Source of the DNA: Apostichopus japonicus
Taxonomy: Eukaryota > Echinodermata > Holothuroidea > Aspidochirotida > Stichopodidae
Assembly: GCF_037975245.1 (NCBI RefSeq)
Contig: NC_092562.1
Coordinates: forward strand, 18,622,554 to 18,686,553
Direction: 5' to 3'
DNA length: 64,000 nucleotides
The position numbers and the translations under genes are program-made. The notes below the pieces were generated by a model. The model was given only the letters and a program-made list of their open reading frames with translations. It was not told the DNA's origin and did no database searches. Of the stretch, positions 23,946 to 60,078 are shown in pieces; position 1 is the first letter of the stretch, and each line of letters starts with the position of its first letter.

Positions 23946-24220
23946 ATTTGGAGAAAAGCTCCAGAAAGCCAGATTTACTACTGTGAATAATATTATATGA
24001 TTAAAAAAAAATAAAAACCTATATTGGACGACGAATCATCTTAACCGAAATATCCCATTAACGTTTACAGCTAAATAACCTTCATGCGCTAGTGAGAAAA
24101 TATTTAAGTTTTTTTTTTAAATTATCGATTGCAACAAATCTTATTTTTGGTACTAAATTCAGACAACTGGCAAGCATCCATTTATCCCCTACCCCCCCCC
24201 CCCCACACACATACATAAGA

Positions 24221-24597
24221 AATGTATAACCTTGTCGCTGACGTAAGTAAATGACAAAAGAACGGATCTCTTTTACCGTTTATTTTCAATATTTTACAGG
24301 GGTAGTTGAACTTTTCGTGACGCAAGGTTAGTGCCTGGGACCTAAACCAAAAAGTTATCGTAAATCTAATAATAGCCGAGTTAGTATAATAAAAGAGTGA
24401 AATGTAATGCCTTACTGCTTTTTAGCAATTTATAACCTTGTCACTGGCGTAGGTTATTGACAAAAGAACAAATCTCTTTTACCGTTTATTTTCAATATTT
24501 TACAGGGTTAGTTAAAATTTTCGTGAGTCAAGGTTAGTACCTGGGACCTAAAACAAAACGTTATCGTAAATTTAATATTAGCCGAGCTGGTATTTAA
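24221..24597. repeat. Tandem pair carrying orphan gene-B-like promoter modules
   Basis: Two units of about 170 bp (24221-24392 and 24428-24597) share TATAACCTTGTC, CTGACGTA-type, GACAAAAGAAC, TTTACCGTTTATTTTCAATA and CCTGGGACCTAAA words. The first 60 bp resemble the upstream region of gene B1 (33275-33340). No start codon exon follows on the gene side. The pair is kept in copy 2 (58642-59020). Confidence 0.7.
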
Positions 24598-25924
24598 AAA
24601 AAAGGAACATAATTTCCTATACCGTTCAATGCTACGTATTCCATGCTAGAATACGAACGAGTATGGACTCACAATTAACACACGTCTGTTTAAAACATAT
24701 ATATCTCATTTATCCACAGTGGTACGAAATAAACATGTTTAATGACATACGCATGTTGTTGAAGCCTTGTAATCAAAGTACGAGTAACCAGATGGTTGTT
24801 ACTTCAAGTACGAGTAACCATAAGCCGCCGCACACAATATAAGACAGAGCCCGACGCGACTCAATTCGACCCTGTCGTAAAATATTTAGTCGTGATGATT
24901 TATAGTATAGAACATTGGTACCATACCACAATTATAGTAGTGTACATCCGCCGGAATAAATATAGTCCTAAATTGACATACTGTAGTTACTTCTTAAATT
25001 GAGGGCACTTTCTGATTCATCATCATTCTTTTTAATGCTTGGATGTTGAAGAGGATGAATAAACTACTGATGGTCTTAAAATCTGGAGGATTGAAGGTGA
25101 TGTATCGCATTTTAGGAAATCCTGGGTGATAGAAGCGAGAGCTGTCAGATGGGTTGGGGTAACTTTGCTAACCGTTGACCTCTTCTGGCTCAAGATCTGA
25201 ACGGTCATCATGGTGGCAAAAAAATGAATGTGTTGTAAAAGCCGAAGCTATAGGCTTTCATATGGTGAGTTGAAGACTTCTATCTATGCTCTAGCGGCCT
25301 AGTCGGAAAGTGACGAATTTGCGTCGGTTTGTGATCAGTCGTATAGTGTACGGTGGGCTGTTTAAAATGATAACACAAATTGTATGGTAATGAGACCAAG
25401 TACTGTGACTTGCAGTGACAGCAATATATTACGTTGCACCTTGTACAAATAATGATGCCACAATGCCATCTTGAACTGATGTCATAATTCTAATTTTAAC
25501 TTTCGTCTCGATTGACTGAACATTAAAAGCTACCACGGAACCGCATACGTATTTTTTACACTAAATTTTAAGTCATTGTGTGGCTAATACCACGGCTTGA
25601 AGTTTTTTATAGCGTAATTAACAATGATAAGTTCCATTGACGTAAGAGGTTGCTCAATTGTACACAGGCAAGAATACCTGTGAGATTCTTGGAAGTTGGC
25701 GATGATATTTAAGATGTGGTGTAAAGTACAACTTGGGTGGACTTTGTAACCTATCGTGACCCCACTGCTTCAGAAAAATATCACCTAAGCTAAAATCGAA
25801 TATTACTACAATAAAGTAAACAGCGATAGGCTACAAATGAAAAAAAAAGTGTCCAATGTGTGTTTGAAGGAAGTCAAAGCTCTTAAAAGTGAGTCCTTTC
25901 CACATATTTGCAGAAGTAACATAT

Positions 25925-26560
25925 TTATAATGGGAATTGGATATTGTTGATTGACGTGGCTGCTTTAACTCTTACTACAATCAGACAAATATTCTGCTTT
26001 ATGTGTAATTCATGTAGAGTAGGATATTAAGTGCTTTCCCTTGGCTACTTTAACAAAAGCATAAATCTTGGTTCAAACATTAATCTTATTGCAGGTTTCC
26101 TTCTTCAATCCAAATACGAAAAGGGTGTGATTGTTTGAATTAATCTCTACGAAAATCAAACACCAAATCCCGGTTTTACTGTGTTATTCTTGAAGTAGGA
26201 TATTGAGTGGTATGACATGGCTGCGTTAACTCTATCAGAGATACAAAACGACTGCGAAGCGACTATTGATTTTGCGAGTGCAAAACGAATATAACCAAAA
26301 GGACACAGTAGGTTTCCATCTTTTCAGACAGGTCTTTGAGATTGTACGATGAGTCCCTCCTCAGTAATGGCATGACGGCTGGTTTAACGCTCAAAGAACC
26401 AACATATGTCCTACTACAGGTTTCCATTTTCAGTTCTTGGAGCTGGAGGTTATGGAAATCAACAAGAAAAATCCTGCTTTGTGCGTGTTATACTAAGAGC
26501 AGGATATTGAGTGCTTTGTACTTTTACCTTGTTATGGCCTGGGTGAATGGGTATGCCAAT
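25925..26560. repeat. Degenerate repeats of an AGGATATTGAGTG word, about 4 units
   Basis: Similar blocks recur near 25935-25985, 26010-26060, 26170-26235 and 26465-26530. Each has CTGCTTT.TGTGT, GTAGG/GCAGGATATTGAGTG and GGCTGC.TTAAC-like words at irregular 120-290 bp spacing. The same set is in copy 2 at 60785-61375. No function is evident. Confidence 0.55.
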
Positions 26561-27656
26561 ATGGGGGAGAAGGTGAAGGGCTTGAAGGTTACTCATGATT
26601 AAAACTTCAACATTCATACAAAAGACATTATTCCTCACAAAGTTACTTATAATTGTATAATTGAAGACTTATCAAGTGTCCGGAGGAATACTTGATCAGA
26701 ACATGGTCAGAAACATGCACAAGGCAAATGATTTTGTTTTGTTTATGTCCCATTGAGACGGAACCTTTGTACGTTATTATTTTTAAGCGGTGAATATGAT
26801 GTCCATTCTTCACTTCCCTAAATACATGAACACGTTGGTTCAGCATTCGTGTGTTTCATTAATGGGCAAAATATAAATTAAACAAGTTGTTGAGAAGTTT
26901 GCTGGGAGACGAGAACAGCAGGGCCTTAAACTTTGACCACTTCTGAATTTGATATTCTTGGAATTTTTCACCTTGATGCAAATTACATCAAAGTTGATTA
27001 TCAAGAAAATTTATAATAATTTAACATAGTCATGACCGAATTTCCAAAACTTCAGCAGCTTAAGTTATATTCGATGCAGAAGAAATGTAAAGACTCAAAT
27101 TTTCTGAGTCGTTTTGTTGTTTTATATCTTCTTCTTTTTTTTCTTTTTCTTTTTTTTTTTAATTGTTGTTGTTTATATATCCTTCTTTTGCCTGCGAAAC
27201 CGACACTTGCCTTGAATTGGCTTTCACTAACTGAACACATACAGACTGCAGATGGAAGAAACTAACGTATGCAACACAGATCGGGAGCCTTTTCTACGTC
27301 ATTGGCCTCTTTATGGGATCTTGTTCTGTCCTTGTAAATCAACCAGAGGTGGTGGTGGTACGTATGGGGGGAAGGGGGTGTTACCTGTAACTGTAATGGA
27401 CAGGGGTGGGGCAATCAAAGATAGGATCCTGACCCGAGTGACAACATCTGACGATAAGGACGATACATTGTGACGGAGGTGAGGTATACTGACATTGACC
27501 AGGAGTGCAAGAGCCGACAAGGGGCAAGCCTCTCTTGATCTAGGACCCAAGGGATATTTATTGTTCTCTCCTAGTGATTTCCAAGTACAAATATATATAT
27601 GTTACTAGGAGGAATTACTCTGAAATGACTTTTGTTCGCCAATCTAAGAGCCGTGG

Positions 27657-27905
27657 TCATTCCTCAGGCTCAGGACCTGCATGGAATTCTCTGATGGGGG
27701 CTTCTTCGCTGTCACAACATTTAGAATTGTGAAGTGTGAAAAAAGTCTGGCTTGTGTATACACGGGAATTGTTAGCATAGTTTACTACAAAGGGTGAATG
27801 GAATCGTGCGCAATGTGAACAGATTTTGCCGCTGTAATGTCTCTTAAAATAAAACTTTAGCTTGGATGCAAACTCAAGAAAGACATATATAACAACAGAT
27901 ATCAA
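27657..27905 (-). other. 82-codon open frame kept in both duplication copies
   Basis: The frame ends CCDSEEAP..EFHAGPEPEE and has CSHCARFHSPFV in the middle. The copy-2 counterpart is 62361-62609, same length, with about nine changed residues. Conservation of length could simply reflect recent duplication. No domain or splice context was recognised. Confidence 0.2.
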
Positions 27906-28743
27906 TGAAAATGTTTTTTGGGGAATGTATTATTTTAAGTAGACTCCACCACCTCTTACTATTATCAATTTGATGTTAGACCTAAACCCGCTCATAATTA
28001 TCACTGATTAGATCTTACAAATTTCAAAATTGGGACAAACTTTTCTAAATTAAAGCATATCGAAATTCGTAACTTACCATAAAATTGTGGTTAAAGTTGA
28101 CACGAGTGCAAGAATTTGTGTGTCTTTTGTGATATTTGTGATTGATTGATGATCTAAAGTTAACTTGAGCGAACATTAATTTTCTGAAAATCCAAACACG
28201 CAAAAAGTACAATAACTCATTGTTGATGAACGTATAGTACACAATATGCTCCTTCTGAATATAAGATGTGCACGATCGAAAATTTGATGTTAGAGATGGT
28301 AAAACTAAAATACTCTTTTTACCATTTTCTTTGAGACTTTTGTTCTTTATATTTCACAGCCTAAGATAATAGTTTTAAAGACTTAAAACAACAGCTCTTT
28401 CATTTAGCAGAGTACATGTTCCCATATGTCCACATATGAAAATAAAAGCAGAAAACTTAAGTAAATGTATCATATTCCATCTTATTAGTTACCACCGTTT
28501 TAAGATGTATGAATTTATCATATGTGTTAATCTTATATGAGTCGAAATTCAAGTTTTAGAAATGTTGGCTGGTTAGGTGACAAGAAATATAAATGTTCCT
28601 TCAAAATAGCTAATGTGACTAATAAATCTTAACCACTAATAAATGCTGATATAACTACAAATTAACTAGATATTAACCAAAATTTTAATATAATCGAAAG
28701 ATATGTGGATGTTTTAGGTGCGCTATTACATTCACACTCATCA

Positions 28744-31700
28744 CTAAAATGTTATTTTAATATGAATACAGACAGTTATCTTTGGCCACCATCCTCGTTT
28801 CGCCAATCCGCTCTCTTGTGGTGTCAGCCAATAGGAATCGCCGTTGGAACACTGGCTTGACACAGCAGGGCTGTTAGTCAACTTGATGTAATCCGCAGGG
28901 ATGAGATCTGATTGGCTAAAGTCGATGAGGTCAACGGTTTCATCAACTGGCACCTACGGGAGACATAGAGAACGCGTTAAATGTCGTTGTGAATTAATCA
29001 TCAGAAAAATACATAAAGAATCGAAGTACATTGTTTAAAAACATTCTTAAATATACGCGTCACACTTGGCCGAATGGAAATTTTATTACATTTTGATGCG
29101 ATTGGTTGAAGATGTAAGCGTATTTTGTCTCAAATTTCTGATAACGTTTTGCTTCTGTTCTTTTCTTTCTACTTTGCTACGTTGTTTTACTCACCAGGTC
29201 TGATCCGGGTTGTATTTCTTGGAAGTAGAAGGGATGAACGTTATCCATATCTTCCATTCCCATGTCAGGAATTTCTTGCAATCGGGTGAAGTAGCAGGTC
29301 GAAGAAGTCTGGTTTTTAATCATCACAATTTCCTGAAATATAAAATAATTCATAAAATGTCATTTAAAGTATGAAGCAGATGTGTGACGCATAAATACAA
29401 TAAAACACATTTTTCCATTGTTGCTTAGTAAATAATATGATAGCCTTTAATCGCCATACAGAGAAATGGAACTTTCTTATTATATATGGCTGGTTTACCG
29501 GAAAAGAACAAAAAGGACGGACATCATATAAATCCGATGACATTAACTGAACGAGTCTCTTAATTCAGGGTCGAGGAGGGGGTAAGGGCAGTCGCTGGCA
29601 TAGAGACCTTGCTAACAAATAATTAAATAACGAAATAAATCATGTTTTGCTGTCAAATATTTCGCCTCTTCTGTTATAATATGTTGAAGTATGGCGTGGC
29701 CAATTCTCTTCATTCTTCAGTAATTGCTTTGGGAAGGTTGGAAGGGAAGTGTGTTATTATAAGACCAAGGTAAAATTGCTCTTCATAATTGGGCTTACCC
29801 TTCCATGATCAAAGATGGCCACAAAACCATCGCCGATACTCTTAATGGTGAGAACGTCACCCTTGGCCGTCATGACTTCGTGATGTTGCACGCCATCACC
29901 CATTTCGAAGGATACACTCTACAAAGAATAAAATACACCATTTGACAACTATCTGCAGAATGTTGCGTTGAATTATATTTTGGGAATCAAATGACTAAAA
30001 TAGAATCCTCATAATTACTGTGACATTTACAACTAACAAGATTCGTCTTCAAGTGTGGAAATATCAAAGTTTAAAAGTTCCTTAATCCATTTTTGTTCAT
30101 TACGTGAATAAACTTTGTTTGTATTTCTGCGATAAAAACATTTTCTCAGTCGTGTGGTATGAAAAGGCATTGAAGGAATAACACTTTTGCTTCTTAGTAC
30201 TTTACATTAGATATGTTACTTAAGAACGACTTAATGCACACAAAAAACAATTATAGTAGCATGTTATAACTCATTGTCCTTATAGATTTCAGATCCATTA
30301 TGATATAAATAGCTGAATAACTTGCAGCTTACATGAAGCGGCCGAATTTTCCAGGTCCGCATAATAATTCAAATAATCAATGGGAAACTATCAGTCTTGT
30401 GATCTCAAGTAACAGACAAACTCGTCACATCCAAAATGATGCTGGATTTGGTAGGCTTCTGTACCCTATTATAATATCGCGTCGAAGGGTAATTATCTTA
30501 CGACGCTAAACAGCCACATGTTCATATTGAAGAAACTGAATGGCTTATTACTCATACTTCACGTCTGATAGCTATCCAGTTCAAAGTGTAAGCTCGCTGT
30601 GCTCTCTTACAAGTTAGAAGACATTTTCAGATGGCAAAAACTGTTTCTGGTACGAGCCGGAAATAATTATGCAGTGCCCACTAAACTATTAAATAATATC
30701 AACTATATGACAACCATTATCGCTTCAGCTTGTACTTACCCGAGTAATGACGATCGGATCTTCTGCTTCGACTTCGTTTGATAAGTTGTTTACAATCGTT
30801 GGTTCTGGTGCTGACAACAACATAAAAAAGACACCAAAGAATCCCACCAGGATGGTCACAACAATGACTGATATGGCCACCACGTACAGCTTGGTCCTAT
30901 CCTTACCCTATCGGATCAAGAAATTTTAAAGCAAATTAACAGCTAAAATAAAAAAAAATGAGTATTTGACAAAGTGACCAACGGAGGTATGAACTATTGA
31001 CAAGCCCTGCTGAAGATTTCTTGATTATTGCAGTATTGTAGTGCGAGTCACAAGTCATAGAAAGTTGCATAATGTATGACGTCATATCAGGATACCCGTT
31101 TCCAACTCGGCAAAATGCAGAGAAGGAAATCGAAGAAACATATTTTAAAAGCATATATAAAACTGTTGACTTCGTTTCGTTAGTATAACCAACACGATTA
31201 ATATCTCCACTGGCGTTTACAATATAAATTCGTCACTTTCAGAGCTTGCCATTATAGAAATTATTCAACTATGGATGCTACCCACCATAACATAGCTGAG
31301 GACTTGCACTATCATTTGATACTTGCTAATTGCCATACCATGACCGTTAAAATGTTGACCTAGAAGAAGAAACGGTTTAGAATGGTCTGTTCATTCAACC
31401 ATATGTCTAAGCAGTCCTCTCCCACGAGTACGAGTAAAATTCCCCTTGATATCAGTATAGGCAGGTTGAGATACGAGTACCTAATCTCGACTAGATTCCG
31501 AGTACGAGTAAAAAATCCACACGAATACAGGTCTCTATGCTAAATTACGAGTACACCATCTCTGCAAAATAGACAACACTTTTGATCTCGTTTGCATTTC
31601 TGTATTTCGTCCCCGCTCCCCAATATTATACATGAATAGCAGCATATTGTCATGGATTCAGTACATTCGATGTTTTTACCTGTTCTGCGAGTAGCTTTAG

Positions 31701-34380: not shown

Positions 34381-34410
34381 AAATTCTGAATCTAAAATAT
34401 TGAAGCTAGG

Positions 34411-35030
34411 TTGGTTCACTCAAAACAACCCACGAACAAGCACAACTACCTTTTACCAATCAGTTGCCATCCACGTCACTGTACCAGAAATAGTTCGTAC
34501 AGTCAAGCGTTGCGCATTCGACGCATTTGCTCCTCTGAAGTCGATTTTGATTCCCGCACCAAAGAACTGTCACAACACCTCATAAACAGACAGTATTTTC
34601 GGGGTACTATTGAAAATGCCATCAAGAAGGCTAAAAGCAAACCCCGTACCGAAACATTGACTTACAAAACTCGTTAAACCAGTTCCAAAAGGGTACCATT
34701 GGTTACTGAATCCCACCCTGGTCTCCCACCACTGTGGCTAATATCATTCAGAAGAATTTTTACCTACTTCAAAGCACCGAACGCCTGAAATCAGTTTTCT
34801 CAGAACTACCTGTCATCGCATTTCGGGCATCCTTTCAGGATGACACCCCATTAGGGGAAAACAAAACAGAAACTACAGGATCATCGCCCTGTACACAAAA
34901 TTGCAAAACGTGCTTATTGTCGATTCGACTGGGGCCTTTCGGAGCAACCAAACCAAACGCACGTTCCAAATTCGGCATACAATAAACTGCCTATCCAAAA
35001 ATGTCATTTACCTCATCTACTGCATCTACT
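34411..35030 (+). pseudogene. Penelope-like element, RT C-terminus and linker, broken
   Basis: Three frames in succession give family motifs: LLPISCHPRHCTRN, then LRIRRICSSEVDFDSRTKEL (34411-34677); VPLVTESHPGLPPLW (about 34691-34735); then a Cys motif CTQNCKTC (about 34893-34916) and INCLSKNVIYLIYC (34985-35026). These are the region after the RT core, the CCHH-like linker and the first strand of the GIY-YIG domain. Frame changes at about 34680 and 34900 show that it is dead. The nuclease is cut off where LINE sequence begins, near 35030. Confidence 0.8.
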
Positions 35031-36110
35031 CATCTACTTTTGACAAAATGTGCGACTATGATATTAACTGTAATCTGACGAAGTGGGTGTTGGACTTTCT
35101 AACAAACAGGATCCAGTGTCTGTAGATTTTCAAGTGACATTGTTACAAACACTGGCGCCCCGCAAGTTTGTGTTATATCACCTGTTCTATTCAACCTTTA
35201 TACTTCTAGCTGTCGTAGCACACAACCTAACACGCATATTGTTAAATTTGCCGACGACACATGCATCTTAGGTCTTATTGGTAAGAATGGTGACGAGGCC
35301 GGGTATAGGCAAGAAATATCCACCTTCAAAAACTGGTGTGATGAAAACAGATTACAACTGTATGTGTCTAAAACAAAGGAGCTCGTCATTGGTTTTCGAC
35401 GTAGTAGGCACCGACTTGAGGGAATGGAGATTGGAAATGAATCAGTAGAACAAGTGCAATCTTATAAATACCTGGGAGTAACCATCACTGATAAATTGGA
35501 GTGGGATGAACATGTAAAAACTGTTCTAGCAAAAACCTAATCAGCGTATGTTCCTATTAAGGAAGCTTAATTCATTCAGACTAGTCACGACTCTCATTTC
35601 TCTGTTCTATAAAGCGGCAATCGAGACCATCATTACATTCTGTTTAGCCGCCTGGGGTGGAAAATACTACTGCTAGAGACATGACCGAGTTAAATAGACT
35701 AGTTTCTAAAGCAAGGAATGTTTGTCGGTCACAGCACCGCAGTTCAATAGATGAGTTGCTTGTCACAGTATCACAGAGAAATATGAAGTCAATCATGTCA
35801 TCCCAACATCCTCTGGGGCATCGGGTAGATTACAGCAATCGAACGGGCAGACCCATTGTCATGAGATGCCGAACTGAGAGATACAGGCGTTCGTTCTTGC
35901 CAAGGGCTATTCTCAATCTTGCCAATGAATTCTGTAGGAAATAGGCCAATTTTATGTGTCAGTACATGGACGTAGAAGTCTTAATTTTCCTTTTTAGGAA
36001 TCAGATTTGTATGTATTTTCGATGTATTTATGATTGTTTTATTGTCTATTTTTACTGAGATGTTTTACTTTTATGGTCAATGAAGATTCTTATATCTCTT
36101 TATATTGTAT
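35031..36110 (+). pseudogene. 5'-truncated LINE (Rex1/CR1-like RT 3' half), broken
   Basis: It starts in the RT domain (LTKWVLDFLTNRIQ), continues with a degraded PQG-VLSPVLF region (about 35150-35200), the catalytic FADD box in KFADDTCILG (35244-35274), then SKTKELVIGF, YKYLGVTITDKLEWDEHVK and a C-terminal HPLGHRVDY..RTERYRRSFLPRAI ending at 35944. Frame shifts occur near 35100, 35540 and 35660. An AT-rich 3' UTR leads into a TA run. The HPL..RYRRSFLPRAI ending is typical of Rex1/CR1-group LINEs. The join to the Penelope-like part fits insertion of a truncated LINE into that element. Confidence 0.8.
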
Positions 36111-36945: not shown

Positions 36946-37172
36946 TTAAAGAGATCATGACACGGGCATATGTCACTCATTGAAATGAAATATTTGGACA
37001 ATTTGATAGACAAATATAAAACTTTTTTTGTTAAAAAAACTTATTTTCGTGTAGAAAATATCAAATGAAAAAAAAACGTCCCACCGTTGCTCGAAAAATA
37101 AGCAGTTTAACCTTCAGACTCAATGACGTCATTGCATGAACGATGTTTAGTATGACATACACTGTCTGTACA

Positions 37173-38807
37173 TATGGCAAGCCGTTTTAACATTTACCTC
37201 GCAATTAGACTTAAGTCGAATACATTTCACTTAAGTGGAATACATTCTACTTAAGTGAGATGGAATTCCACTTAAGTAAAATATATTCCACCTAAGTGGA
37301 ATTCAATTTCACTTAAGTGGAAATGGACATTTCTATTTCACTTAAGTGGAAATGAATTCCACTTAAGTGGAATTGTATTCCACTTAAGTGGAAATGCATT
37401 CCACTTAAGTGGAATTGTATTTCACTTAAGTGGAATGCATTTCCACTTAAGTGGAATACAATTCCACTTAAGCTAAATAGCCCATCTATTTCACTTAAGT
37501 GGAATACAATTCCACTTAAGTGAAATGCATTTCCACTTAAGTGAAATACAATTCCACTTAAGTGGAATGCATTTCCACTTAAGTGGAATTGTATTCCACT
37601 TAAGTGGAATACAATTTCACTTAAGTGGAATCATATCTTTTGGGCGTCAATTTCACTTAAGTGGAATTCTATTCTGCTTAAGTAAAGTACAATTCCACTT
37701 AAGTGGAATTGTTGATATGTGGCTTATATATAAATATAATTTAGGGTAATGTTCGTCGTAACGCATTCAATTGCTCATCACATATGATGATGTAGTCGAT
37801 CCTCGTTGCACGTGTATATCATGACTATGGCTAATCATTCACATCTAACATTGCTGTAATGCGATCAAAAAATTGTTGTTGTTAGAGACACAATTCGAAG
37901 TGATGTTTCCTCACTTGCACAGGGGATTAATCAGTATGATGCACAACAGAGGCGACTTACATCTTAAGTAACATAGGCAGAATTCGTAACTTTTTAGAGA
38001 GTGAAACTTTTGATAAATAAAAGATTCCATCCAAAACCCCAAATCCACAAAAAGTTAAACGTTCTCTTGCCCTTGTCAATGCGTTTTCGGCTGTAGCTCC
38101 AACCACTTATTATGTATTGGCTTTATTTTGGTAATGGTATTCGTCAGGTACCAGGTCAGGTACGTAGGTACACACCTTGCACGGATGTTTAGTGCTAGCT
38201 GGATCCCGATGGACAGCCGATATTCATTGTGCACATATCGACACCACGTACGTACTTACACGTATCGCGGCAAGTTGTTTATAATGGCGCGCAAAGGCAT
38301 GGGCAAAGTTTGGCGGTGAATGCACTAGCCAATCACATTCCACTTAAGTGGAATAGACAAGCCAATCACATTCCACTTAAGTGAAATAGATTATCCAATC
38401 ACATTTCACTTAAGTGGAATGCATTACCACTTAAGTGGAATTGTATTCCACTTAAGTAAAATAGACAGGACATTCCACTTAAGTGGAATTGTATTCCACT
38501 TAAGTAGAATACAATTCCACTTAAGTGAAATGCATTTCCACTTAAGTGGAATACAATTCCACTTAAGTGGAATGCAATTCCACTTAAGTGAAATAGAATT
38601 TAGCTTAAGTGAAATGCAGTGACAAGTTGATGAATTCAGCTTAAGTAAAATACAATTAAGCTTAAGTGGAATGGTATTCCACTTAAGTGAAATAGAATTC
38701 CACTTAAGTTAAATAGTATTCTGCTTAAGTGAAATTGAATTCCACTTAAGTGAAATGTATTCGACTTAAGTCGAATTGCGAGGTAAATGTTAAAACGGCT
38801 TGCCATA
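37173..38807. mobile_element. Palindrome-array foldback element 1
   Basis: 1635 bp with ends TATGGCAAGCCGTTTTAAC and the exact complement, flanked by the 6-bp duplication TGTACA (37167-37172 and 38808-38813). Long arrays of TTCCACTTAAGTGGAA variants fill both sides (about 37205-37720 and 38335-38770), with a CTTAAG every 21 bp in the regular parts. The centre (37740-38335) is unique sequence also found, inverted, in element 3. No transposase was recognised. Confidence 0.92.
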
Positions 38808-39968
38808 TGTACACGGCGTCGGGACGTATGGCAAGCCGTTTTAACATTTACCTCGCAATTAGACTTGAAGTCGAATACATTTCACTTAAGTGGAAATGGA
38901 CATTTCTATTTCACTTAAGTGGAAATGCATTCCACTTAAGTGGAATTGTATTTCACTTAAGTGGAATAGCATTTAAATTAAGTGGAATAACATTTCACTT
39001 AAGCTAAATAGCCCATCTATTTCACTTAAGTGAAATACAATTCCACTTAAGTGAAATGCATTTCCACTTAAGTGAAATATAATTCCACTTAAGTGGAATG
39101 CATTCCAATTAAGTGAAATTGTATTCCACTTAAGTAAAATACAATTCCACTTAAGTGGAATAATATCTTTTGGGCGTCAATTTCACTTAAGTGGAATTCT
39201 ATTCTGCTAAAGTAAAATACAATTCCACTTAAATGGAAATGTTTATTTGTGGCTTATATATAAATACAATTTAGGGTAATGTTCGTCGTACCGCATTCAA
39301 TTGCTCATCACATATGATGATGTAGTCGATCCTCGTTGCACGTATGGCAAGCCGTTTTAACATTTACCTCGCAATTCGACTTAAGTCGAAGTCGAATACA
39401 TTTCACTTAAGTGGAATTCAATTTCACTTAAGCAGAATACTATTTAACTTAAGTGGAATTCTATTTCACTTAAGTGGAATACCATTCCACTTAAGCTTAA
39501 TTGTATTTTACTTAAGCTGAATTCATCAACTTGTCACTGCATTTTACTTAAGCTAAATTCTATTTCACTTAAGTGGAATTGCATTCCACTTAAGTGGAAT
39601 TGTATTCCACTTAAGTGGAAATGCATTTCACTTAAGTGGAATTGTATTCTACTTAAGTGGAATACAATTCCACTTAAGTGGAATGTCCTGTCTATTTCAC
39701 TTAAGTGGAATGCAATTCCACTTAAGTGGAAATGCATTCCACTTAAATGAAATGTGATTGGATAGTCTATTTCACTTAAGTGGAATGTGATTGGCTAGTG
39801 CATTCCACTTAAGTGGAATGTGATTGGCTAGTACATTCAACGCCAAACTTTGCCCATGCCTTTGCGCGCCATTATAAACAACTTGCCGCGATACGTGTAC
39901 GTACGTACGTGGTGTCGATATGTGCACAATGAATATCGGCTGTCCATCGGGATCCAGCTAGCACTTAA

Positions 39969-40767
39969 AGCAGCATTTTGCGTTGGGTCGCTTTTTTCCA
40001 CCTTTTTAACATGTGCATCGATTTTTTTACATGTATCAATCATAAAACAGCAAACTAAGATACCATCCAATTTTCATCCTGCCAAGAGCGTTAATTAGCG
40101 AGTAATTAACGATTAATATATATCGATAACGAGTAAAAGTGTCCTCGACAAAGTTTTCATATCTCCAAATCCACTAGTTTGAATTCCACCAATCAGTGAA
40201 TAGTATGTTTATTCATGAGCATTTTGCGTTTGGTCGCCGTTTTCTACTTTTTTGACATGTCCATCGAGTTTTTTACATACATCAAATCACAAAACAGCAA
40301 ATTAAGATATTAGCCAAGTTTTTCCCTGCCAAAAACGTTAATTAGCGAGTATTCCACATACAAAATTAAATCGCATTCAGTTCCCAAACCTACTAGTTTG
40401 AATTCAACCAATCAGAGATGCAGGTTTAGTTATGAGCCGTTGCTAAAAATAGATTCAAGACTTTGCGTTGGTACAACTCCCTGGTACAACTGCCGTATAG
40501 ACTGTACACAAATCAAGCGTGGTGTTATATTACGTATCTGTCAATGACGTTCGTAGTGTTTAAATATTCATATTATGGGCGAGGTTTATTGGGTTCCCAA
40601 CGGAAAATATCTTGGAGAACAACACAGTTGAAAGTTGCAATTTTTTCGACTTTTATGCCACCATTTGAAGTAAAATATAAATAGATAAGCTAGTTATGTA
40701 TGTCGTTATGGCATAGTGGAGTCAGTGAGGTTGAGAAATACCATAGTCGAGGACGCAAAATGCTGCT
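39969..40767. mobile_element. TTAA-flanked element inside foldback element 3
   Basis: 799 bp with ends AGCAGCATTTTGCG and CGCAAAATGCTGCT, flanked by TTAA (39965-39968 and 40768-40771). The empty site, reverse-complemented, is in element 2 (CGGATGTTAAGTGCTAGCTG, about 41926-41942). It holds two diverged direct repeats (about 39972-40115 and 40220-40350) sharing GCATTTTGCGTT.GGTCGC and CGTTAATTAGCGAGTA. The only long plus-strand frame (40463-40684) has no recognised domain. Confidence 0.88.
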
Positions 40768-40824
40768 TTAACATCCGTGCAAGGTGTGTACGTATGTACC
40801 TGACCTGGTACCTGACGAATACCA

Positions 40825-41163
40825 TTACCAAAATAAAGCCATGGCAAATACATTACAAGTGGTTGGAGCTACAGCCGAAAACGCATTGACAAGGGCAAAA
40901 GAACGTATTACTTTTTTGGATTTTGGGTTTTGGATGGAATCTTTTATTTCGTCAAAAGTTTCACTCTCTAAAAAGTTACGAATTCTGCCTATGTTACTTA
41001 AACAAGATGTAAGTCGCCTCTGTTGTGCATCATACTGATTGTTGCCCTGTGCAAGTGAGGAAACAACACTTTGAATTGTGTCTCTAACAACAACAATTAT
41101 TTGATCGCATTCCAGCAATGTTAGATGTAAATGATTAGCCATAGCAATGGTGTACACGTGCAA
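40825..41163 (-). other. 112-codon open frame in foldback element 3, unidentified
   Basis: The likely start is the internal MANHLHLTLLECDQ; the protein looks helical and amphipathic (VVRDTIQSVVSSLAQ, RRLTSCLSNIGRIRNFLESE). The matching region of element 1 on the plus strand (about 37826-38130) begins the same way but has stop codons and deletions, and element 2 keeps only the first part (41787-41910). A frame intact in one copy and broken in others suggests a once-coding remnant. It is not recognised as a transposase. Confidence 0.4.
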
Positions 41164-42549
41164 CGAGGATCGACTACATCATCATATGTGATGAGCAATT
41201 GAATGCGTTACGACGAACATTACCCTAAATTGTATTTATATATAAGCCACATATCAACATTTCCACTTAAGTGGAATTGTATTTTACTTAAGCAGAATAG
41301 GATTCCACTTAAGTGAAATTGACGCCCAAAAGATATTATTCCACTTAAGTGAAATTGTATTCCACTTAAGTGGAATACAATTCCATTTAAGTGGAAATGC
41401 ATTCCACTAAAGTGGAATTGTATTTCACTTAAGTGGAAATGCATTTCACTTAAGTGGAATTGTATTCCACTTAAGTGAAATAGATGGGCTATTAAGCTTA
41501 AGTGAAATGTTATTCCACTTAAGTGGAAATGTATTCCACTTAAGTGAAATACAGTTCCACTTAAGTGGAATGCATTTCCCCTTAAGTGAAATAGAAATGT
41601 CCATTTCCACTTAAGTGAAATGGAATTCTACTTAAGTGAAATTGAATTCCACTTAAGTGGAATACATTTTACTTAAGCGGAATAACATTTCACTTAAGTA
41701 GAATGTATTCCACTTAAGTGAAATGTATTCGACTTAAGTCTAATTGCGAGGTAAATATTAAAACGGCTTGCCATATGCACGTGTGGCTATGGCTAATCAT
41801 TCACATCTAAAATTGCTGAAATGCGATCAAGTAAATGTTGTTGTTAGAGACACAATTCGAAGTGTTGTTTCCTCACTTGCACAGGGGAACAATCAGTATG
41901 ATGCACAACGTACGTAACTTGCACGGATGTTAAGTGCTAGCTGGATCCCGATGGACAGCCGATATTCATTGTGCACATATCGACACCACGTACGTACGTA
42001 CACGTATCGCAGCAAGTTGTTTATAATGGCGCGCAAAGGCATGGGCAAAGCTTGGCGTTGAATGTACTAGCCATCACTTAAGTGGAATAGACTATTCAAT
42101 CACATTCCACTTAAGTGAAATAGACTATCCAATCACATTTCACTGAAGTGAAATAGAATTCTACTTAAGTGAAATACAATTTCACTTAAGTGAAATAGGC
42201 AGGACATTCCACTTAAGTGGAATTGTATTCCACTTAAGTAGAATGCAATTCAACTTAAGTGAAATTGAATTTAGCTTAAGTAAAATACAATTCCACTTAA
42301 GTAGAATGCAATTCCACTTAAGTGAAAAAGAATTTAGCTTAAGTAAAATGCAGTGACATGTTAATGAATTCAGCTTAAGTAAAATACAATTAAGCTTAAG
42401 TGGAATGGTATTCCACTTAAGTGAAATAGAATTCCACTTAAGTTAAATAGTATTCTGCTTAAGTGAAATTGAATTCCACTTTAGTGAAATGTATTCGACT
42501 TAAGTCGAATTGCGAGGTAAATGTTAAAACGGCTTGCCATAGGGACGCG

Positions 42550-46019: not shown

Positions 46020-46029
46020 CTAATACCCT

Positions 46030-49000
46030 TCCATAACCAACCAACAGACCAAGTTATTTCATATCTGTCCAAACTTCCTTCACGGATCTCAGCAGTGCAA
46101 TATTTTCACACTCTATTGAATTGCTCTGCTGTCCCACAGGCTAGTTCATCGGACTTATATTATTGTTTCTAAATATACTCCTTGTACTGTAATAGGGTAA
46201 GGGATAGAACATATAAAGGGAGTCTTCTTATTGAGCTGCTTCTCCATATCAGGGATGTCACAACATATAGTTGATATCTCTCAACAATTTGCAGTCAATA
46301 AGGATGCTATACCAAGATTTATCATCACACGGAATAAGACTGAAATTACCCTAAAAGAGGCCCAAGTGACTAACAGTTGTTCATGTTACCCCGCGATAAT
46401 CGCGATGTACATGATATTTCATACCAGTATGCATTCTCATACGAATTTGAACTACATTTTCGTGAGATCATAAGCCATATCAATGAATTTGTAGTATACT
46501 TAATCCTGCTGCTCGCTCCTTGTTTGGTGTATGTCATTGTGGTGATATATTGCTATATTTAATATCGATGAAATTCTCGTCATTGGAGTGTTCGTACATG
46601 CAGTTTTCAGTTTTCAGTACAGTATGCATATGTTCAACTGTTTTTCATAATATATGATATAATATTATTGGTCTTTTTGCTTTATTCTCCAGTCATTTAT
46701 ATTTAAATTTACCGCCATCACCAGTATATGCTTATTATATTGTATACGTTTAACCGTATTTTCCTGGGTATCCGTGTAATGAGAGCTGATGCCTCTTTCA
46801 ATCGACTCTTAATTCAGTTTAGTCCAGGGACCAGTTTATTAGTTGGTGTTGCATATTCACATAATACATAACAAACACAGCTTAGGAAAGACAAAGAAAG
46901 CAAACAAAGTATTAAATTAAAGATAGAATCCCAACCCCATACTTGAACAGTCAGAGAATTTATTGCCTGATACATGTTTCGTGACGTTTAAAGCTACATA
47001 TCAAAACAGCTAAGCTGAGACGAGATCCTTCCCCAAAATCACCCTAATATGTTTTGTTTTTTTCACGTTTGCATATAAGGAAACCCTGTGTTTCCCAGAA
47101 AATTGCCATCGTTTTGACGAGGGATTATTCGATTGCTTAACCGACCAGCGTAATGTTGGAAGCCATAGAAACAATTTCAATTTGTTACCATGGATTGTTT
47201 TAATCTAAACGGCTCTATACTTGAACAGAACAGTGCGTGATGATTCATAGCTAAATTAGTAGGTATACGTAACTTTAAAGTTTGACCGAACATAGCGTCA
47301 ATCAAGACTTCCCAAGCTGCATAAAACGGCCATAGAGTGCGGACTCATAGTATAAAGGAGCTCTAACCGCTAACACAAAGCCGCGTACTTAAGTGTGTGC
47401 CAGCTGTTTGACCTATAAGCTAACTTAAACAAAACTTTTGGGGGTTACTTATCACGTTTTTCCCCTGTAAAAGCCAAAATAAGTAAGCGAAATGATTCCA
47501 AGCCTTCATAAATTTAACCAATGACATTTATCTTATCTTCATATCACCAATTCCATGCAAATTTTCCTCAAGAAGTTCATTCGGTATGGAAATGGTGACA
47601 GGTACGTTAAATTTATTTTAAACAAATTCCTAACATATTGCCGGATAATCCACTTTTGCAAGAAAATGATCCCCATAGAAATTATCAGGGATAATTAATT
47701 ACATGCTACAGTCAAGATTTTCTTTTCATTTTCTTAAAAAAAAGTCATCCATATGAAAATAGCGACTTTTCCTTGCTCCATAAAACAGACTATAACTCCG
47801 CGACTGGTTTATTCACATATCGCGAAATGTTATTCCACATGAAGTTATTAGTCGTGTACTTTTCACAATAAAAATCTTTTATTTGACAATTAAAATAAAT
47901 ATGAAGATATGATGATACTTTCGTTTAGATTTTGATCCATCATAAAATACAACACAGATAATCCCCAAGTTCAATGACACAATTAGTTGTGTACTTTCAC
48001 CATCAAGATCATTCATTCTTCTGAAAGACTTTAATCCGTTTCACCCATAGCGCAATTATATCTATGTTATTCACTTCAGGGGCTTAGCCAGCTGTTGGGC
48101 TCGAGGTGAGGAGCAGCCAACTTTTCATCCTCATTTTACGGCCCACATTAAGAGCCACCGCGGATCGGGCAAAATATTTCGTCTTATTTCGAAGGAGGGA
48201 GGGGGCAGAAACGTTTATTATTCACCCTTACTAGAACTGACGTTGGGATAGGCCTAGTCTATAGGCCCTAGGCATTGACCCAAACTTATTGAAAACAATT
48301 TCTTTGTTTTTTGTTTTTGTTTTAACTAGACTTTGCATATGACAACATCCTAAGATCCTTCAATACCATTTCCTTTCTTTCTCCGGTTGATGCAACCGAA
48401 AGCCAGGCAGGATGTTTCCATGTTTCTGCACACGACATTACGACAGTTTGGTAAGTTGGTATTAACATTACTGTCTTTAACATAAACATTGAGCAGACGA
48501 CGGTCATGTCTTCCGCCATTTGCCCGGTTTGGTAATGGCGCCCAAATCTTAATGCTGGCAAAGCTATTTTGGGGCAGTCCGCCCTCTTGTTCTTATATCC
48601 TGCTCTATGAATACGAACGACTCCGTGACATTACTATTTGATGGCGTCCTCCTTTTAATCCCTAGACCCTGCATACTCCGAACGGTGTGGGTTGGACAGT
48701 CAACCGAGGTTTAAATAGAGGGCGGGTTGGTAGATATTTGAGATCATGAGTATATACTGAAAACAGATACCCGCGGTCTTGAACAAGATGTACCGAACAC
48801 GGTTGACATTCATAATGGGAAAAAAAATTACCCCCTCGCTCAGTCGTTATAAATACGTATACAAGAGCACACGTACCATGCTATTCAGCGGCAGGTGATA
48901 TGCTTTGCCTTTGTGCTGGAAGAGGGAGACATACAATTATTGACAATATTTATAAGCCTTTCTATTGATATTTGGTTGGCAAGGTATCCTTAGTAAGTGG

Positions 49001-52000
49001 AAGTATACCTGAAGCAGTATGGTGATGCTATTCCATAAATGCATAAATGAATTCTCCAATTACACCAGGAAGTTTACAACTCCCGTTTTGTATTTATACA
49101 TATTTGTTTTGATCAGTGATTAATGCCTAACGCCGCCATCAGTGTTATTGTCTGTCACAATCACTTGGTGATATCACGTTATATAGTAGTTAAAGTGTTC
49201 AAAGGAGATAGAAACCCAACTGTAGTTATTGGACTATGTCATGGGCAATTCCACACACAACTAGGAAAAAAATATTATTCCATTTGGGAGTTATAAAAGA
49301 ATGAAATGATCCTGCACATTCCAGGTCGAAGACTTGATCAAGTCTAAATATAACAATATAATGCCCTCTATTTTATCCAACTTCTGATTCCTACATACAA
49401 CATTTGACTACAAAAACAAAGAGAAAGCCAAATGTGTCAGATTACGGTGAAGTTTGACATCACAGATTCAGAAAATGATAGCTCGCAGACACGATGTTTG
49501 AAACTACGATATCTCCTCAAGGTAATAATATGATTTCTAGCTTCTTGGGGGATTTTTCTTCGCAAAAATCTATGTCAATTAAGACAAAGTTAATTATTCC
49601 AATTAAGTAATAAGTCTGCTGACTTTGTTTTGGCATGTTTTCCTAATTCTTCTATATTGTAGATGGGAGATGTGAGGGGGGAAATTGTTGGTCCTTGTCC
49701 CTGCTCTACCACTCCAAGCCAGCCTCCCCCCGCCCCACTGATTACGTCTCTGGCGGATGGTGGGATAATAATTGCGTTGTTTGAATTGCGTTATACACCC
49801 CTATAGATGGAGTAATTCTTATTTTTGACAACAACAGCAAAAACAACTTCGTGCTTGCAGTAAATATCCAAAGTGGTAGCATATTCACTGAAACTACAGT
49901 TAGTAATCTGAGAAAACATGCGTGATGTTTTACTTTACCAATATTTAACAGTGGCATTGCAAAAGACGTTGAACCATCTGGTTTAGTTTAGTGGAAACAA
50001 GATCAGGAGGAACATTATAATGCCTATTACGGACCCTACGAAAGAAACTAAACAAAGAAACAGCAAATCCTAATGGAATTCTAAAAAATAACCCTCCAAA
50101 GCATTCTAAAATACCGTTAAAACGGTACTGTGTCTTCTCCCTACGATAGGTCTCTGCTGTTTTGAGCAACAGAGCGAGGACACCGATAGTCCTGGTCAAG
50201 ACGTTTGTAATGTTCGTTTTTCTTGCGTATTTTTATCTCTCACGAAGCTTCTTCAATACCGTTACATGTTAGCACGATCGGGGCGCTCGTCTGCTCCATC
50301 GCAACAGCTTATTTCCATACACAGCTGTAGTCTCTATGCATTGTATGGTTTATCTACACAGCTCTGGGTTAACGTATGTTACGAGGGCGCTTGTCCACAA
50401 TTAAACTTGCCCGAGGATCTGTCCGTAACACACTAGTATCGAAAAGAAAACGAGTAAAATTGGGGGCGCACTATCAGCATACACCACGGAGCCAACAAAA
50501 CGGTGCTTTCGGTCTATACTGAAGTAGTTGCTTAAAGTATACTAGGGTACTGACAAGGCTAGAACACGCAGTACACAAGGACTTAACGATTATCAATTTT
50601 GTTGTGTACCAACTTCACGTTAAAAAGTATACGGGTCATTCATCAGCACTACACTATGTCAATCCGCCCGGATGTTCTCCTTCAGGAAAAGTGCCAAAAT
50701 GAAATAGGAGAACATTTTTTTGACACGATATCAATCGGGATTTTTGGTGGTTGCATGTTGAAGTGCATGAATGGAAGTACCTGTGGGTCAGTTGAAGCAA
50801 TTTTAGACCCACTTTAGGCCTCCCACGGGCAGCGTATGAAAACTGTTTACTACTGAGTGAAGAGGTTTGTTTACAAAGTGACGAAAACTTCAGGCTCTGA
50901 TAGCAAACAATCTTCACGGTCATGATACGGAATATTGATGGTGCCCTGAAAGGCCAACTTGTCAGCTATCCAGTGATGGGTATAGCGTTTAGCTGGTGAG
51001 AACTATCTAGACTTAGAGATGCACATTTAGTTTGAAAATCAATGGGGCTGTAAATGGGCGTATGCTACCAGATACATAACTGCAAATAAATTGGGATAAT
51101 ATTTGTAATTGAATTGTGACTCCCCTGGACTCTGGGAGATCGTGGAGGTGGGAAGTTCCGCCTTAAAGAAAGATGAGTATGTCTACAGGTAACATACAGA
51201 CTGAAACTGTGAAATTGTTATCATCCAGAATGTCCCGTATTCCTCCTTCAACAAGATTTCATGTAAGACAGTGGTGTAAGAGGTTTTTTTACAACTCTAA
51301 AATGTACTACCTGGTGTCTACCCTCCTAACGCGTAATCTCAACATGAATCACTTGTTAGGCTAGTATTATGACCATTTTTCCCCTCAAAAAGTAAGCGAG
51401 CTAAAGGGCCACCTAAAAGCTAGCTGGACGTAGGGATGGGTCAGAGGGGGTCTTCAGCCACCACGAGGACCGGGGTCAAGTAGGGGGCCCAGGGAAATAC
51501 AGAGGGCACTGGGGAATATCAATGAAGAATAAGGTATTCTGACATTCACAATGTAAGAGAGGGTCAGGTGACATAACTGCCCACCTATAAGTGTTAATAA
51601 TGTAGAGCTACTACTGCACAAGCAGAATGAAGATAAATGCGTACACATCTGAGTTGAAAATATATTCATTCAAACGGCAGTAAAGTATTCATTGTGCATT
51701 GGTACATGAAAGTAAGTACGCACATTTATAAATCGAGAAAAACCCCACAACCCGTTAGACTCCATTATTAATGGCGATAGTGATATGTAAAATACACTGA
51801 ATATTCATTATTTTCCCCATAATGATAACCCACTAGTTATTCTTCATGAAAACTACATCTTAGCAAATAAGTGTTAAGAGATCAAGAAATTAATAATCAA
51901 ACATACATACATACACACACACACACCCACATAGAGAGATGGATGAATTCTAAGAATATAGGTTAGAAACTATTATGCTTCCGTTAAGTCTTCAATCAGT

Positions 52001-52550
52001 TCGAACAATTTCGCTACGCACTAAAGTATGTCCTCTCATATTACGCTTCAAAGCACTTGTACTGACAGCATTAGCAGGTCCTATAACTTTTATTTACTAG
52101 AAACCGAATTCATACTTATCATACGTCGATACAATTGCTTTGAAGCATGACATGAAAACTCACTAATTTCCTCCCTCATTACTGTGAGGAAGAGAAAAGA
52201 ATTATGAGAAAAGTAAATGTTATCAAAAGTCCATTAGGGTGGCAATGACTATGGTACTTAAAAATTACTAAAAAGTTACAAGGGATGGCAATATTTGTTA
52301 TATGTAGATGTAACAGGTCAACGCAGTAATTAACTAAACAAAAATTAAGAATTCTGACTTAGCAACGTCACTATTTTAGTATACGTACAATACAGAAAGG
52401 AGTTATAAACAACCTGTAACTTAACTTTATAGCAAGACTGCAAGAGGCCTTAATACACACCGATTCCTGCGATTTGGAAGACAACACTATTGTACATTTT
52501 AAAAGGGGATTACAATGGTATTGTTTTAAAATAATTCTACATATGATTTC
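46030..52550. other. Intergenic part of duplication copy 2, no supported gene
   Basis: Matches 11340-17890. The block 48660-51100 is nearly identical to 13960-16400. Open frames here, such as 48322-48561 (-), 49945-50199 (-) and 50654-50923 (-), have no recognised domain. Confidence 0.4.
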
Positions 52551-52558
52551 AAAGAGTT

Positions 52559-52564
52559 TTTATT
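52559..52564 (-). terminator. Poly(A) signal of gene A2
   Basis: AATAAA on the minus strand, 15 nt after the stop codon, as in gene A1. Confidence 0.6.
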
Positions 52565-52578
52565 GTTAACTCCTCCGA

Positions 52579-55500
52579 TTAACAAAGAGTAAGAAAATAT
52601 GTTTCGCAATCTGTTACTACCACCCAAAGTTCACATGGTACTACTGGTTCTACATTCGCTTGTTGTCTTACTGCCGCTCGCACAATCCGTGTATCTTGGT
52701 TGTTCATTGGCTCAATCCAGAAGGATAAACTATCAATACATTGATCAGCTGCATTGATTAACTTGAGGAAACCAGCTGGTATCGGTTGTAATTGTTCTGC
52801 ATACATCCTTGCATTGGAATGATTCAGTACCTACATCGAAAACAAAAATTCATATCAAAGTTATATCGATTAAAGGCAGTCGCCTGTTCAAAGGTTTAGA
52901 AACCTAAGAAATAAAAACATGTAAATACTGTCCAAATTAACATTCCTATCAGAAAACAAGATGACCAATGTATTAACTTGAAATGATACATAGTAAAATT
53001 ATTACCTATGCAAGTTTCTAAAGTACAATTGACAATGATGAAATATTTCTGATTTTAAGTTGACATCAACATATTGAGGTCATCTCACAAAAGTTTTGCT
53101 TTTCCTTCAGGGAGAGGGGTATTTATTGAGATAATTCATCATCGGACTATCAAGGCATAAAGAGAAGAAAATTTAAACAATGAGTTAAATTAGCAATTAT
53201 TACAATAAATACAAATATCTTAAAGTAATCTTACGTGTTCAAATATTAATACATGACTGTAATTTATACATATCAGTTATTTAAAGGTGTTTTATTTTCT
53301 CTACTAACTTGACATTCGGGACAGTTGAAATCTGGAGATATTCGATACTGGGATAACTCCAATTAGTCTCTCTACATGTATGGGGTCTGACACAAGATCA
53401 TTAAGACACACCGTCCTCGGGAATTTCCCTAGTGGGATGTTTCAATCCACATCACCTATATATATAGGGTCAGTCAATATACATTATAGGTGAGATATTT
53501 CATCTTAACGCGTTTTGATTGGTCTCAAAGTTATTGTTTCGACAAACAAAGAAGATGAGCTTTATTAAAAATAGTTCTTTGGGGTCGCTGCATATGATGA
53601 CGAATTATGATGACCAGCCTAGATAATTCGCATGAGCGAAGAGAGACCTGTGTGATAACATATATGCATATACCTATTTAGGAAAATGATTTTTAAAATG
53701 TTTTCCATCCTCATAATAGCAATGATCATATCATTCGAACAACCGAAAGACGAAACCAGTTACCTTCCCCCCCCCTCCCTCCCTCCCTCCCTCCCTCTCC
53801 AACCAGCTTGGTGAGGGGAAATGCAAACACCTCCTGATGATGTTGGTTTGATTAGTCTCTGACCCAGTCTCTTGTTTTCGTAACAAAGAAATGGTGGCAT
53901 ATTTCTAATTTATCACTTTTTCGCGTCAGCAACAACTGGTTTAGTTTTACGAACAAACGAAGGTCGTCATCATGAATATATCAACATCCCACCCTCTCTC
54001 ACTCTAAACCTCTCTCTACCTACACCTCTCTCTCCATCTATCTCTCTATCGCACGCTCTCTGTCTCTCCACCCACCACGCCCTCCTCCCTGATCCCCTCC
54101 TTAACGAAAAGGATATCTTTCTTACCTTATCGGAAGATGAATCAGCCTCTCGAAAGAAGAAGGGGAGAATATTGTCTAAATTATCCACAGTCATATCTCC
54201 AGGGTAGTCTTCAAGTGGAGTGAAGTAGCAATTGTTGTTTTTCAGATCTTTAATCATGATGATGTTCTAAATCAAAAAGAGAAAGACAAAAGTAGAAAGA
54301 AAGAATTCATAAAAGCTCTTGCGTTAAAGTCCTTAAAAGTAGCTGGATACCATGGAAACTCTACGCCCCCTATCCCTTCCCATGACAAAAAGCGAGACAT
54401 CTGCAATAAATGCTTCAAGCTGATATTGATGCTTTAGTATGTCTTATGGTTTGCACAATTGTAATGTAAGTTTGAGTCTTTAAATTTGATAATTTTGATA
54501 AAATGTTGCTACATGAAAAAAGAAACCATAATAAAAAAGTTTTAAGTATTACCTTGTCATGGTCAAATGTGGCAGTATATCCGTCGTTCAAATTCTCTAT
54601 GATCAGAATATTTCCCTCGACCATCATTTTTTCGTTTCTTGGAACGCCATCGAACATTTCAAAAGCCACTTCCTGTAAACAGAATAAGACAACATTCTTG
54701 TCAGTTTTCATTCATTAATTTACACCGAGGTAACAACTGCATACATCGACACTTAATAAATGTGCAAACAATGCATTCATTCTCCCTCACCACATCCAGT
54801 CCCACCATGGCTCATTGCCCACTCTTTTTTATCCTTCGCACACTTGCCCACCCATATTCATCCTTCATCACCCAAGCCCCACCCTAACTCTGCCATCGTA
54901 ATATTTTGATAGTAAAACTCATATCGGTTTATGGTAATAATCAATCTTTCAATCAAAATTGTAGTCTTTCATCTGTGTGAAGTTTATTTTAATATCCGAA
55001 GTATGCATGGATTTCCTTTACCTTTCATATTGTTTTGAACTTAATTGTCGATAGGTTACTTTAGTTTTACTTACCCTGATTATAACTACTTGATCTCCAT
55101 CTCCCGTCGTCAAGTTGTTCACAACCTTTGGATTCCCAGAAAACACGAGGTAGAACACACCAAACGATAACACCAACAGTGTGACAATTGTCACTGTTAC
55201 GGCGATAACATAGAGTTTCGTCTTACTCGGCTGCTGAGACTATATACAGTGAAAAGACATGAAAATCATTCAATACATGCAATTGACCGTTTATGTGTAT
55301 TTTCGCAATATGCTTGACTTTGTGACTTTCGCTTGACTTTGTGACAATATGCTTGTGATTGTGACTTTCGCAATATGCAATTCAATTTCTCGAAGTTTTC
55401 TCTCACAATTTTTGGTAGGATTACCCGCAGGGTCACACATTTCTTAAATTAAATCTGATTAAGGAAGGGTTCTGGGTTTGTTTGTTTTTTTGGTAGTTTA

Positions 55501-56426: not shown

Positions 56427-56472
56427 CAATTTTTCCCGGTCTGAACACAGTACCCTAAACCTCAAAAATGCT

Positions 56473-59643: not shown

Positions 59644-60078
59644 TATGGCAAGCCATGTGGGACAAACACCGCATAATATATCCGCGTATTAATTCGAATA
59701 TATACGCGTATTAATTCAAATATACATGTGTTGTACATGTATAAAGTTTCGCTTTTTGAAGCGAGCCCGCCGAAACATTTATCCTTGGTAAATGTATACA
59801 GCAAGAGCGGAAATGTTTTTTTCGTGTATATTCTAATTAATCCGTGCATATATTGGATTTAATCCCCATGTATTTTATTTAATACGTGTATATATTCGAA
59901 TTAATACGTGTATATATTCGAATTAATACGTGTATATATTCGAATTAATACGCGGATATATTTAAGCCATATGATTGGCTCATAATATATACGCGTATAT
60001 ATTCCAATTAATACGCGTATAAATTCCAATTAATACCCGGATATATTATGCAGTGTTTGTCCCACATGGCTTGCCATA
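59644..60078. mobile_element. Palindrome-array foldback element 4 (small, different array)
   Basis: 435 bp with ends TATGGCAAGCCATGTGGGAC and complement, flanked by ACCGTT (59638-59643 and 60079-60084). Copy 1 has the empty site with one ACCGTT at 25171-25176. The terminal TATGGCAAGCC and 6-bp duplication equal those of elements 1-3, but the interior is a 22-bp AATTAATACGTGTATATATT-type array with ATTCGAAT and ACGCGT palindromes. No coding capacity: the minus-strand frame 59643-59849 is part of the repeat. Confidence 0.92.

Follow-up and report, generated by a model that had tools for sequence, protein, structure and literature searches.

Four mobile elements with common ends lie in a 64,000-bp stretch of the genome of the holothurian Apostichopus japonicus (contig NC_092562.1, positions 18,622,554 to 18,686,553), the whole of which is called the window here. 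As seen in Table 1, element 3 is nested in element 2, which is the older copy, and elements 1 to 3 carry arrays of short palindromes that begin near both ends. All four elements are without a transposase gene, so that the original prediction, made from the letters of the window, was correct in describing them as non-autonomous. Large relatives with matching ends and an integrase-like transposase gene were found elsewhere in the same genome, and the organization of the arrays, the target sites and the possible relationship between small and large elements are described below.

Ends and target-site duplications in the window

When up to one mismatch was permitted, the terminal sequence TATGGCAAGCC occurred 8 times in the window, in 8 of 8 cases exactly, and the occurrences form four inverted pairs; in 100 shuffles of the window the mean was 0.75 and the maximum 5. 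All four elements therefore have the termini TATGGCAAGCC..GGCTTGCCATA, with TATGG..CCATA outermost. The terminal inverted repeat (TIR), counted up to the first mismatch, is 34 bp long in elements 1 and 2, 18 bp in element 3 and 26 bp in element 4. The interruptions in the latter two are single mismatches, at position 19 in element 3, after which matching continues to 34, and at position 27 in element 4, after which matching resumes. Inward of about 70-80 bp, the two sides of an element form no long perfect inverted repeats.

Table 1. Coordinates of the elements and of related features (window positions, except for the two large copies, which are given by contig)
Feature	Position	Strand	Length	Target-site duplication	Remarks
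Element 1	37173..38807		1,635 bp	TGTACA, left 37167..37172, right 38808-38813	Family a, CTTAAG palindromes; 34-bp TIR; similar copies in genome
Left palindrome array of element 1	37207..37715				Spacing of CTTAAG cores mostly 20-21 bp; centre of first core 40 bp from end
Right palindrome array of element 1	38337..38772				Limits approximate
Element 2	38827..42541			GGGACG, 38821-38826 and 42542-42547	Family a, split by element 3
Element 3	39343..41775			TGCACG, 39337-39342 and 41776-41781	Family a, nested in element 2
Open stretch in element 3	40828..41178	-	117 codons, stop to stop		Putative remnant resembling N-terminal exon of rva_4 transposase
Element 4	59644..60078		435 bp	ACCGTT, 59638-59643 and 60079-60084	Family b, ACGCGT-type repeats, 22-bp period
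Empty site of element 4	24915..25542	+		Single ACCGTT at 25171-25176	Other copy of segmental duplication
Large copy on contig C1	12260970-12283636		22,667 bp	CGGCCG	rva_4 gene on minus strand
Large copy on contig C16	5792413-5813831		21,419 bp	CGAACC

The four 6-bp target-site duplications that had been predicted (TGTACA, GGGACG, TGCACG and ACCGTT) are exact on both sides; two random 6-mers of the window are identical with a probability of 0.00045. Two empty sites were also found. The window contains a segmental duplication (approximately 11341-29010 and 46028-63742, about 34.7 kb apart, with pieces 83-95% identical), and element 4 is present in one copy of it only; the joined flanks of element 4 align straight through the corresponding site in the other copy. 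Similarly, element 1 near 37801-37815 represents an empty site for element 3, since the same internal position is uninterrupted there and contains one TGCACG. Therefore, the boundaries of the elements and the length of the duplication rest on two empty sites and not on the repeats alone.

Several other features were noticed in the window. Inside element 3 lies another small element (39969..40767, or 39965-40771 with the flanking TTAA duplications), which has AGCAGCATTTTGCG ends and stands outside this family; element 2 carries an uninterrupted TTAA at the matching site, and a similar sequence adjoins the right end of an element elsewhere in the genome (L013). Reverse-transcriptase-like open stretches were seen by eye at 34396-35941.

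Families, arrays and target sites across the genome

Exact 11-bp ends number 1,144 in forward and 1,134 in reverse orientation genome-wide, compared to 25 and 28 for the reversed-pattern control. The original prediction was right in describing a real transposon family. According to their longer ends, the copies can be divided into families: family a (92 + 102 ends), with the subfamily a-prime (46 + 59); family b, which includes element 4 (264 + 270); family c (L009 and L010), with GATATC palindromes; and further families each seen singly. Most of 20 fetched family-a copies are 1.4-1.7 kb long and, among the comparisons listed, about 84-99% identical in pairs. Elements 1 to 3 and element 4 have the 11 bp in common and differ in their palindromes and target preferences, so they probably represent separate families of one superfamily, and the single family of the original prediction was drawn too narrowly.

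The search for end pairs with 6-bp duplications that had been proposed with the original prediction was extended to these families. A first set, drawn from the window and from 24 fetched stretches, was paired by simple nesting and contains some wrong pairings in the nested cluster L018; of its 27 end pairs, 18 are flanked by exact 6-bp duplications. Comparison at 20 shifted offsets gave no duplication, and no duplication continues into a seventh base pair. After re-pairing, 36 of 46 copies have exact duplications (family a 23/27, b 9/13, c 2/2, others 2/4), a set in which three pairs of L018 were picked because they matched and from which unpaired ends were excluded. Among the 20 fetched family-a copies, the duplication is exact in 16 and has one mismatch in 4. 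Fresh samples gave exact duplications in 8 of 10 a-prime copies, one of them the large copy on contig C16, and in 9 of 10 family-b copies; one of the two a-prime failures resembles a 5-bp duplication.

The palindromes differ between families, and their spacing is similar: mostly 20-21 bp between CTTAAG cores, 20-21 bp between GATATC cores and 22 bp between repeats of the type found in element 4. Their starting position is also similar. In 45 of 46 family-a ends and in 4 of 4 family-c ends, the centre of the first palindrome lies 40 bp from the end. Of 24 family-b ends, 15 have this centre at 41 bp and 6 others have it one unit further in, at 63 bp. In the large element on contig C3, described below, it is centred at 39 bp. 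Because copies inside a family share descent, it is the agreement across families with unlike palindromes that counts most as evidence. What is new here is the combination of a phasing of about 20-22 bp, palindromes that are family-specific and a first centre that nevertheless mostly lies at 39-41 bp. Palindromes with arms of at least 7 number 13 in element 1, where Markov sequences give 0.2, and 11 in element 3, where they give 0.14. Element 4 has 1 such perfect palindrome (Markov 0.34) and otherwise imperfect repeats. The description of the elements as made of palindrome arrays is thus clear for elements 1 to 3 and less so for element 4.

CpG is preferred at different target positions in different families, which is also new here. 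Of 23 family-a sites of 6 bp, 17 have a CpG at the edge and none has one at the centre (window background 5.3% for the edge and 2.7% for the centre). In family b, a central CpG was seen in 8 of 9 sites and then in 7 of 9 of the fresh sample, with none at the edge in both.

A few copies have an unusual arrangement. In L064, two family-a copies are joined head to tail as a dimer whose ends are trimmed at the junction. The flanks of one copy in L018 resemble inverted copies of the target sequence, perhaps through aberrant transposition. Contig C4 has five places, at about 10.51-10.89 and 29.25-29.49 Mb, in which a reverse family-b end precedes a forward family-a end by 20.0-20.5 kb, as if a unit of that length had been repeated. 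Outside this genome, primers for the bay scallop HSP70 promoter (primer table of PMC4100766) contain AACGGCTTGCCATA, which resembles the end of this family.

Large copies with an integrase-like transposase

The Pfam family rva_4 (PF24764) was considered a likely integrase-like transposase family, and the genome search then bore this out. With 150 of the 224 candidates scored, at least 143 matches were found in the genome (best 4e-74) and none in any of 14 control genomes; many of the 143 sit on contig C17. The search for an autonomous copy, likewise proposed with the original prediction, located four elements that bracket an rva_4 transposase, with exact 6-bp duplications in 4 of 4. Two of them, 21-23 kb long, carry the ends of this family, and two of about 18 kb carry related ends.

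In the large copy on contig C1, the end at 12283636, upstream of the rva_4 gene, is of the a-prime type and has 21 CTTAAG cores, most of them 20-21 bp from the next, and the far end at 12260970 has a CTTAAG array of its own; among the large copies, arrays at both ends were read in this copy only. The copy on contig C16 is 97.7% identical to it over 4.3 kb. Both have a CpG at the edge of the duplicated site, the C16 site being already among the eight of the a-prime sample. A 161-bp tandem repeat occurs in the large elements (L104, 3304-4101, and L105); the C1 copy contains at least 5 units and the C16 copy about 17 by alignment extent.

Along the C1 gene lie an N-terminal region, an HTH_7 match (3e-5), a WH-DG exon and the rva_4 core (3.1e-75); the general rve profile matches the transposase with just E=0.042. 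When 20 rva_4 loci were aligned without motif preselection, all of them had the second D and 19 had the E, the remaining locus (L100) having a stop there. The C1 protein has 34 residues between the second D and the E. No zinc-binding integrase domain was found in a Pfam scan that covered three exons of the C1 gene, and when the core exon was compared with PDB sequences, the single match had E=0.94.

A second rva_4 lineage comprises three copies, about 99% identical over 3.5 kb, with ends TATGGTTGGCC. The copies on contigs C3 and C6 measure 18,357 and 18,675 bp between paired ends, with the duplications GCCGTC, which has a central CpG, and ATAGTA, which has no CpG; for the third copy, on contig C12, the far end was not located. 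The end of this lineage is also palindromic (TTTACGCGTAAA), with ACGCGT cores spaced 19, 23 and 19 bp.

Two lines of evidence connect the small elements to the large ones. The a-prime end and the family-a end of the window have their first 28 bp in common, with one difference in the left end of the C1 copy, and both are followed by CTTAAG arrays. In addition, an open reading frame (ORF) of family-a copies is 32% identical over 65 residues to the N-terminal exon of the C1 transposase (E=3e-8, a single comparison); the matching ORF of genome copies was used here, not the ORF of element 3 itself. A tblastn search with the same C1 exon recovers family-a copies. On this similarity, the non-autonomous copies retain a putative remnant that resembles the N-terminal exon of the rva_4 transposase. 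Between a family-c ORF and that of family a the similarity is weak (25% over 57 residues, E=0.008). Weak Pfam matches of the remnant ORF were under the cut-off and were set aside.

Other candidates for an autonomous copy were rejected. L009 and L010, 3.1 kb long, contain nothing transposase-like by eye among ORFs of at least 90 codons from stop to stop, and the 90-residue ORF of L009, the only one of these two loci scanned, matches no Pfam family. The 8.1-kb bracketed family-b copy L029 (C1:20279312-20288415, duplication CCCGTA) contains pieces that look, by eye, like a long-terminal-repeat retrotransposon.

Affiliation and proposed mechanism

According to PMC10045372, IS3EU elements always have TA..TA termini, usually produce 6-bp duplications and possess an integrase-like DDE transposase, and PMC12730594 gives TAYGG..CCRTA ends and TIRs of more than 30 bp for TET-bearing fungal IS3EU. 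The likeness of the present elements to IS3EU/GingerRoot extends over the TATGG..CCATA ends in the window (and TATGGTTGGCC in the second rva_4 lineage), the 6-bp duplications, the 34-bp TIRs of elements 1 and 2 and, probably, the integrase-like transposase of the large copies. Because the ends and the duplications agree with these published marks, the superfamily is probably an already known one, IS3EU, which the original prediction had listed among its candidates. Its suggestion of an undescribed family therefore overstated the distance, since transposase-bearing relatives with the same kind of ends also exist in the genome. The differences lie in the palindrome arrays phased at 20-22 bp and in transposase-bearing copies of 18-23 kb, neither of which is mentioned in the available text of PMC10045372 and PMC12730594. 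A phased palindrome array is not described for IS3EU in the portions available of these two papers and PMC8268682, and the terms palindrom, foldback and subterminal do not occur in PMC10045372.

It could be argued that the elements belong to another group with 6-bp duplications, such as Dada, Polinton/Maverick, a Ginger-like group or a new superfamily, for the Pfam name is rva_4 and not IS3EU, and no paper was found that ties PF24764 to IS3EU. Polintons have AG..CT-type ends and genes for a polymerase, an ATPase and a capsid, and the ends of the window elements differ from this type. The agreement of the ends, duplications and TIR length with published IS3EU, and the poor match to the general rve profile compared to rva_4, make such an affiliation very improbable.

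Among elements with complex ends, Galileo has tips of about 40 bp that are conserved from family to family and are followed by long family-specific TIRs with several sites for its THAP transposase, the first about 70 bp from the end (PMC3688188, whose authors left the role of the long repeat-bearing ends uncertain). As in the present elements, a tip common to several families precedes family-specific multi-site ends. The enzymes differ, THAP/P-type there and integrase-like rva_4 here, and the sites here are palindromes phased by two helical turns from 40 bp onward. The ends of Foldback (FB/TU) elements likewise consist of short repeats able to fold back, comparable to the arrays of about 21-bp units at both ends here. 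Foldback elements produce longer duplications than the 6 bp seen here, and the long arms here are not perfect inverted repeats. The present elements may work like Foldback elements and are not filed as such.

The preferred interpretation, to which we assign a probability of roughly 0.78, is that these are IS3EU-type non-autonomous elements moved in trans by their large rva_4 relatives, with the arrays serving as docking rows. Elements 1 to 4 would be cut-and-paste DNA transposons, and relatives of about 18-23 kb in the same genome would supply an integrase-like D,D34E transposase with a helix-turn-helix domain. This enzyme would cut at the TATGG..CCATA ends and join them to target cuts 6 bp apart, giving the 6-bp duplication, and it would favour CpG in the target. 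The arrays would be rows of binding sites for the dimeric DNA-binding part of the transposase. Beginning about 40 bp inward and recurring every two helical turns, these sites would all lie on the same side of the helix, an arrangement modelled on the multi-site TIRs of Galileo. Such arrays would improve the recognition of the ends and would keep the families apart, because the tip is common and the palindrome differs.

Several points weigh against this interpretation. No transposase-bearing copy with the ends of family b was found, and on contigs C1-C5 no b end lies within 30 kb of an rva_4 match among the first 100 of 534 b ends. The edge preference for CpG is weaker in the a-prime sample (edge 3/8, centre 1/8) than in the first family-a sample. 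The large elements were read in part, with 10 kb or more of each outside the stretches read. The assignment to the IS3EU type would follow from ends and duplications rather than from transposase phylogeny. What the analysis shows directly are the empty sites, the ends with their duplications, large copies that carry both a transposase and matching ends, the similarity of the remnant to the N-terminal exon, and the phasing and register of the palindromes; we infer the mobilisation in trans, the cut-and-paste movement and the binding of dimers to the arrays, as well as the enzyme that would move element 4.

The arrays may also be explained without docking. If they work as folded single-stranded DNA or RNA, such as hairpins, cruciforms or a source of small RNA, the fold would be kept by selection or by the mode of copying, and the left array of element 1, taken as a single strand, would fold strongly (-187.8 kcal/mol; mean of shuffled sequences -44.2, z -33). 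A comparison of the two arms over 975 units, which are not independent, gave mixed results: the second position outward matches in 0.74 against 0.62 under independence, as a fold would give, the third in 0.39 against 0.53 expected, and five other mirrored positions about as expected. With one position above, one below and five near expectation, this comparison does not separate half-site binding from folding. A phasing of 20-22 bp and a register of 39-41 bp, kept in four families with different palindromes, are nevertheless more than folding needs, and a folding role is considered quite unlikely. Arrays that are passive, with one palindrome duplicated in tandem by replication slippage or gene conversion in old elements and with no role in movement, would account for units that are alike within a copy and for their variable number (33-75 CTTAAG across 20 copies, 75 in a dimer). 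The equal spacing and starting register across families with differing palindromes, transposase-bearing copies included, argue against passive arrays, which we regard as unlikely.

Starting from docking on the arrays, a modular end code can be tentatively considered, and it is rather doubtful. The common 11-bp tip would be addressed by the catalytic part of the enzyme, and the family-specific palindrome row, which begins about 40 bp inward and follows a two-turn phasing, by a fast-changing DNA-binding part; with the CpG register shifted as well, standing at the edge of the 6-bp site in one lineage and at its centre in another, the result would be transposases that have their tips in common within a single genome and do not cross-react.

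Through the four large bracketed copies, together with the small copies, the ends and the target preference of an integrase-like transposase family can be assigned to it. If the arrays are docking strips, these elements show how related transposases with common tips could stay specific.

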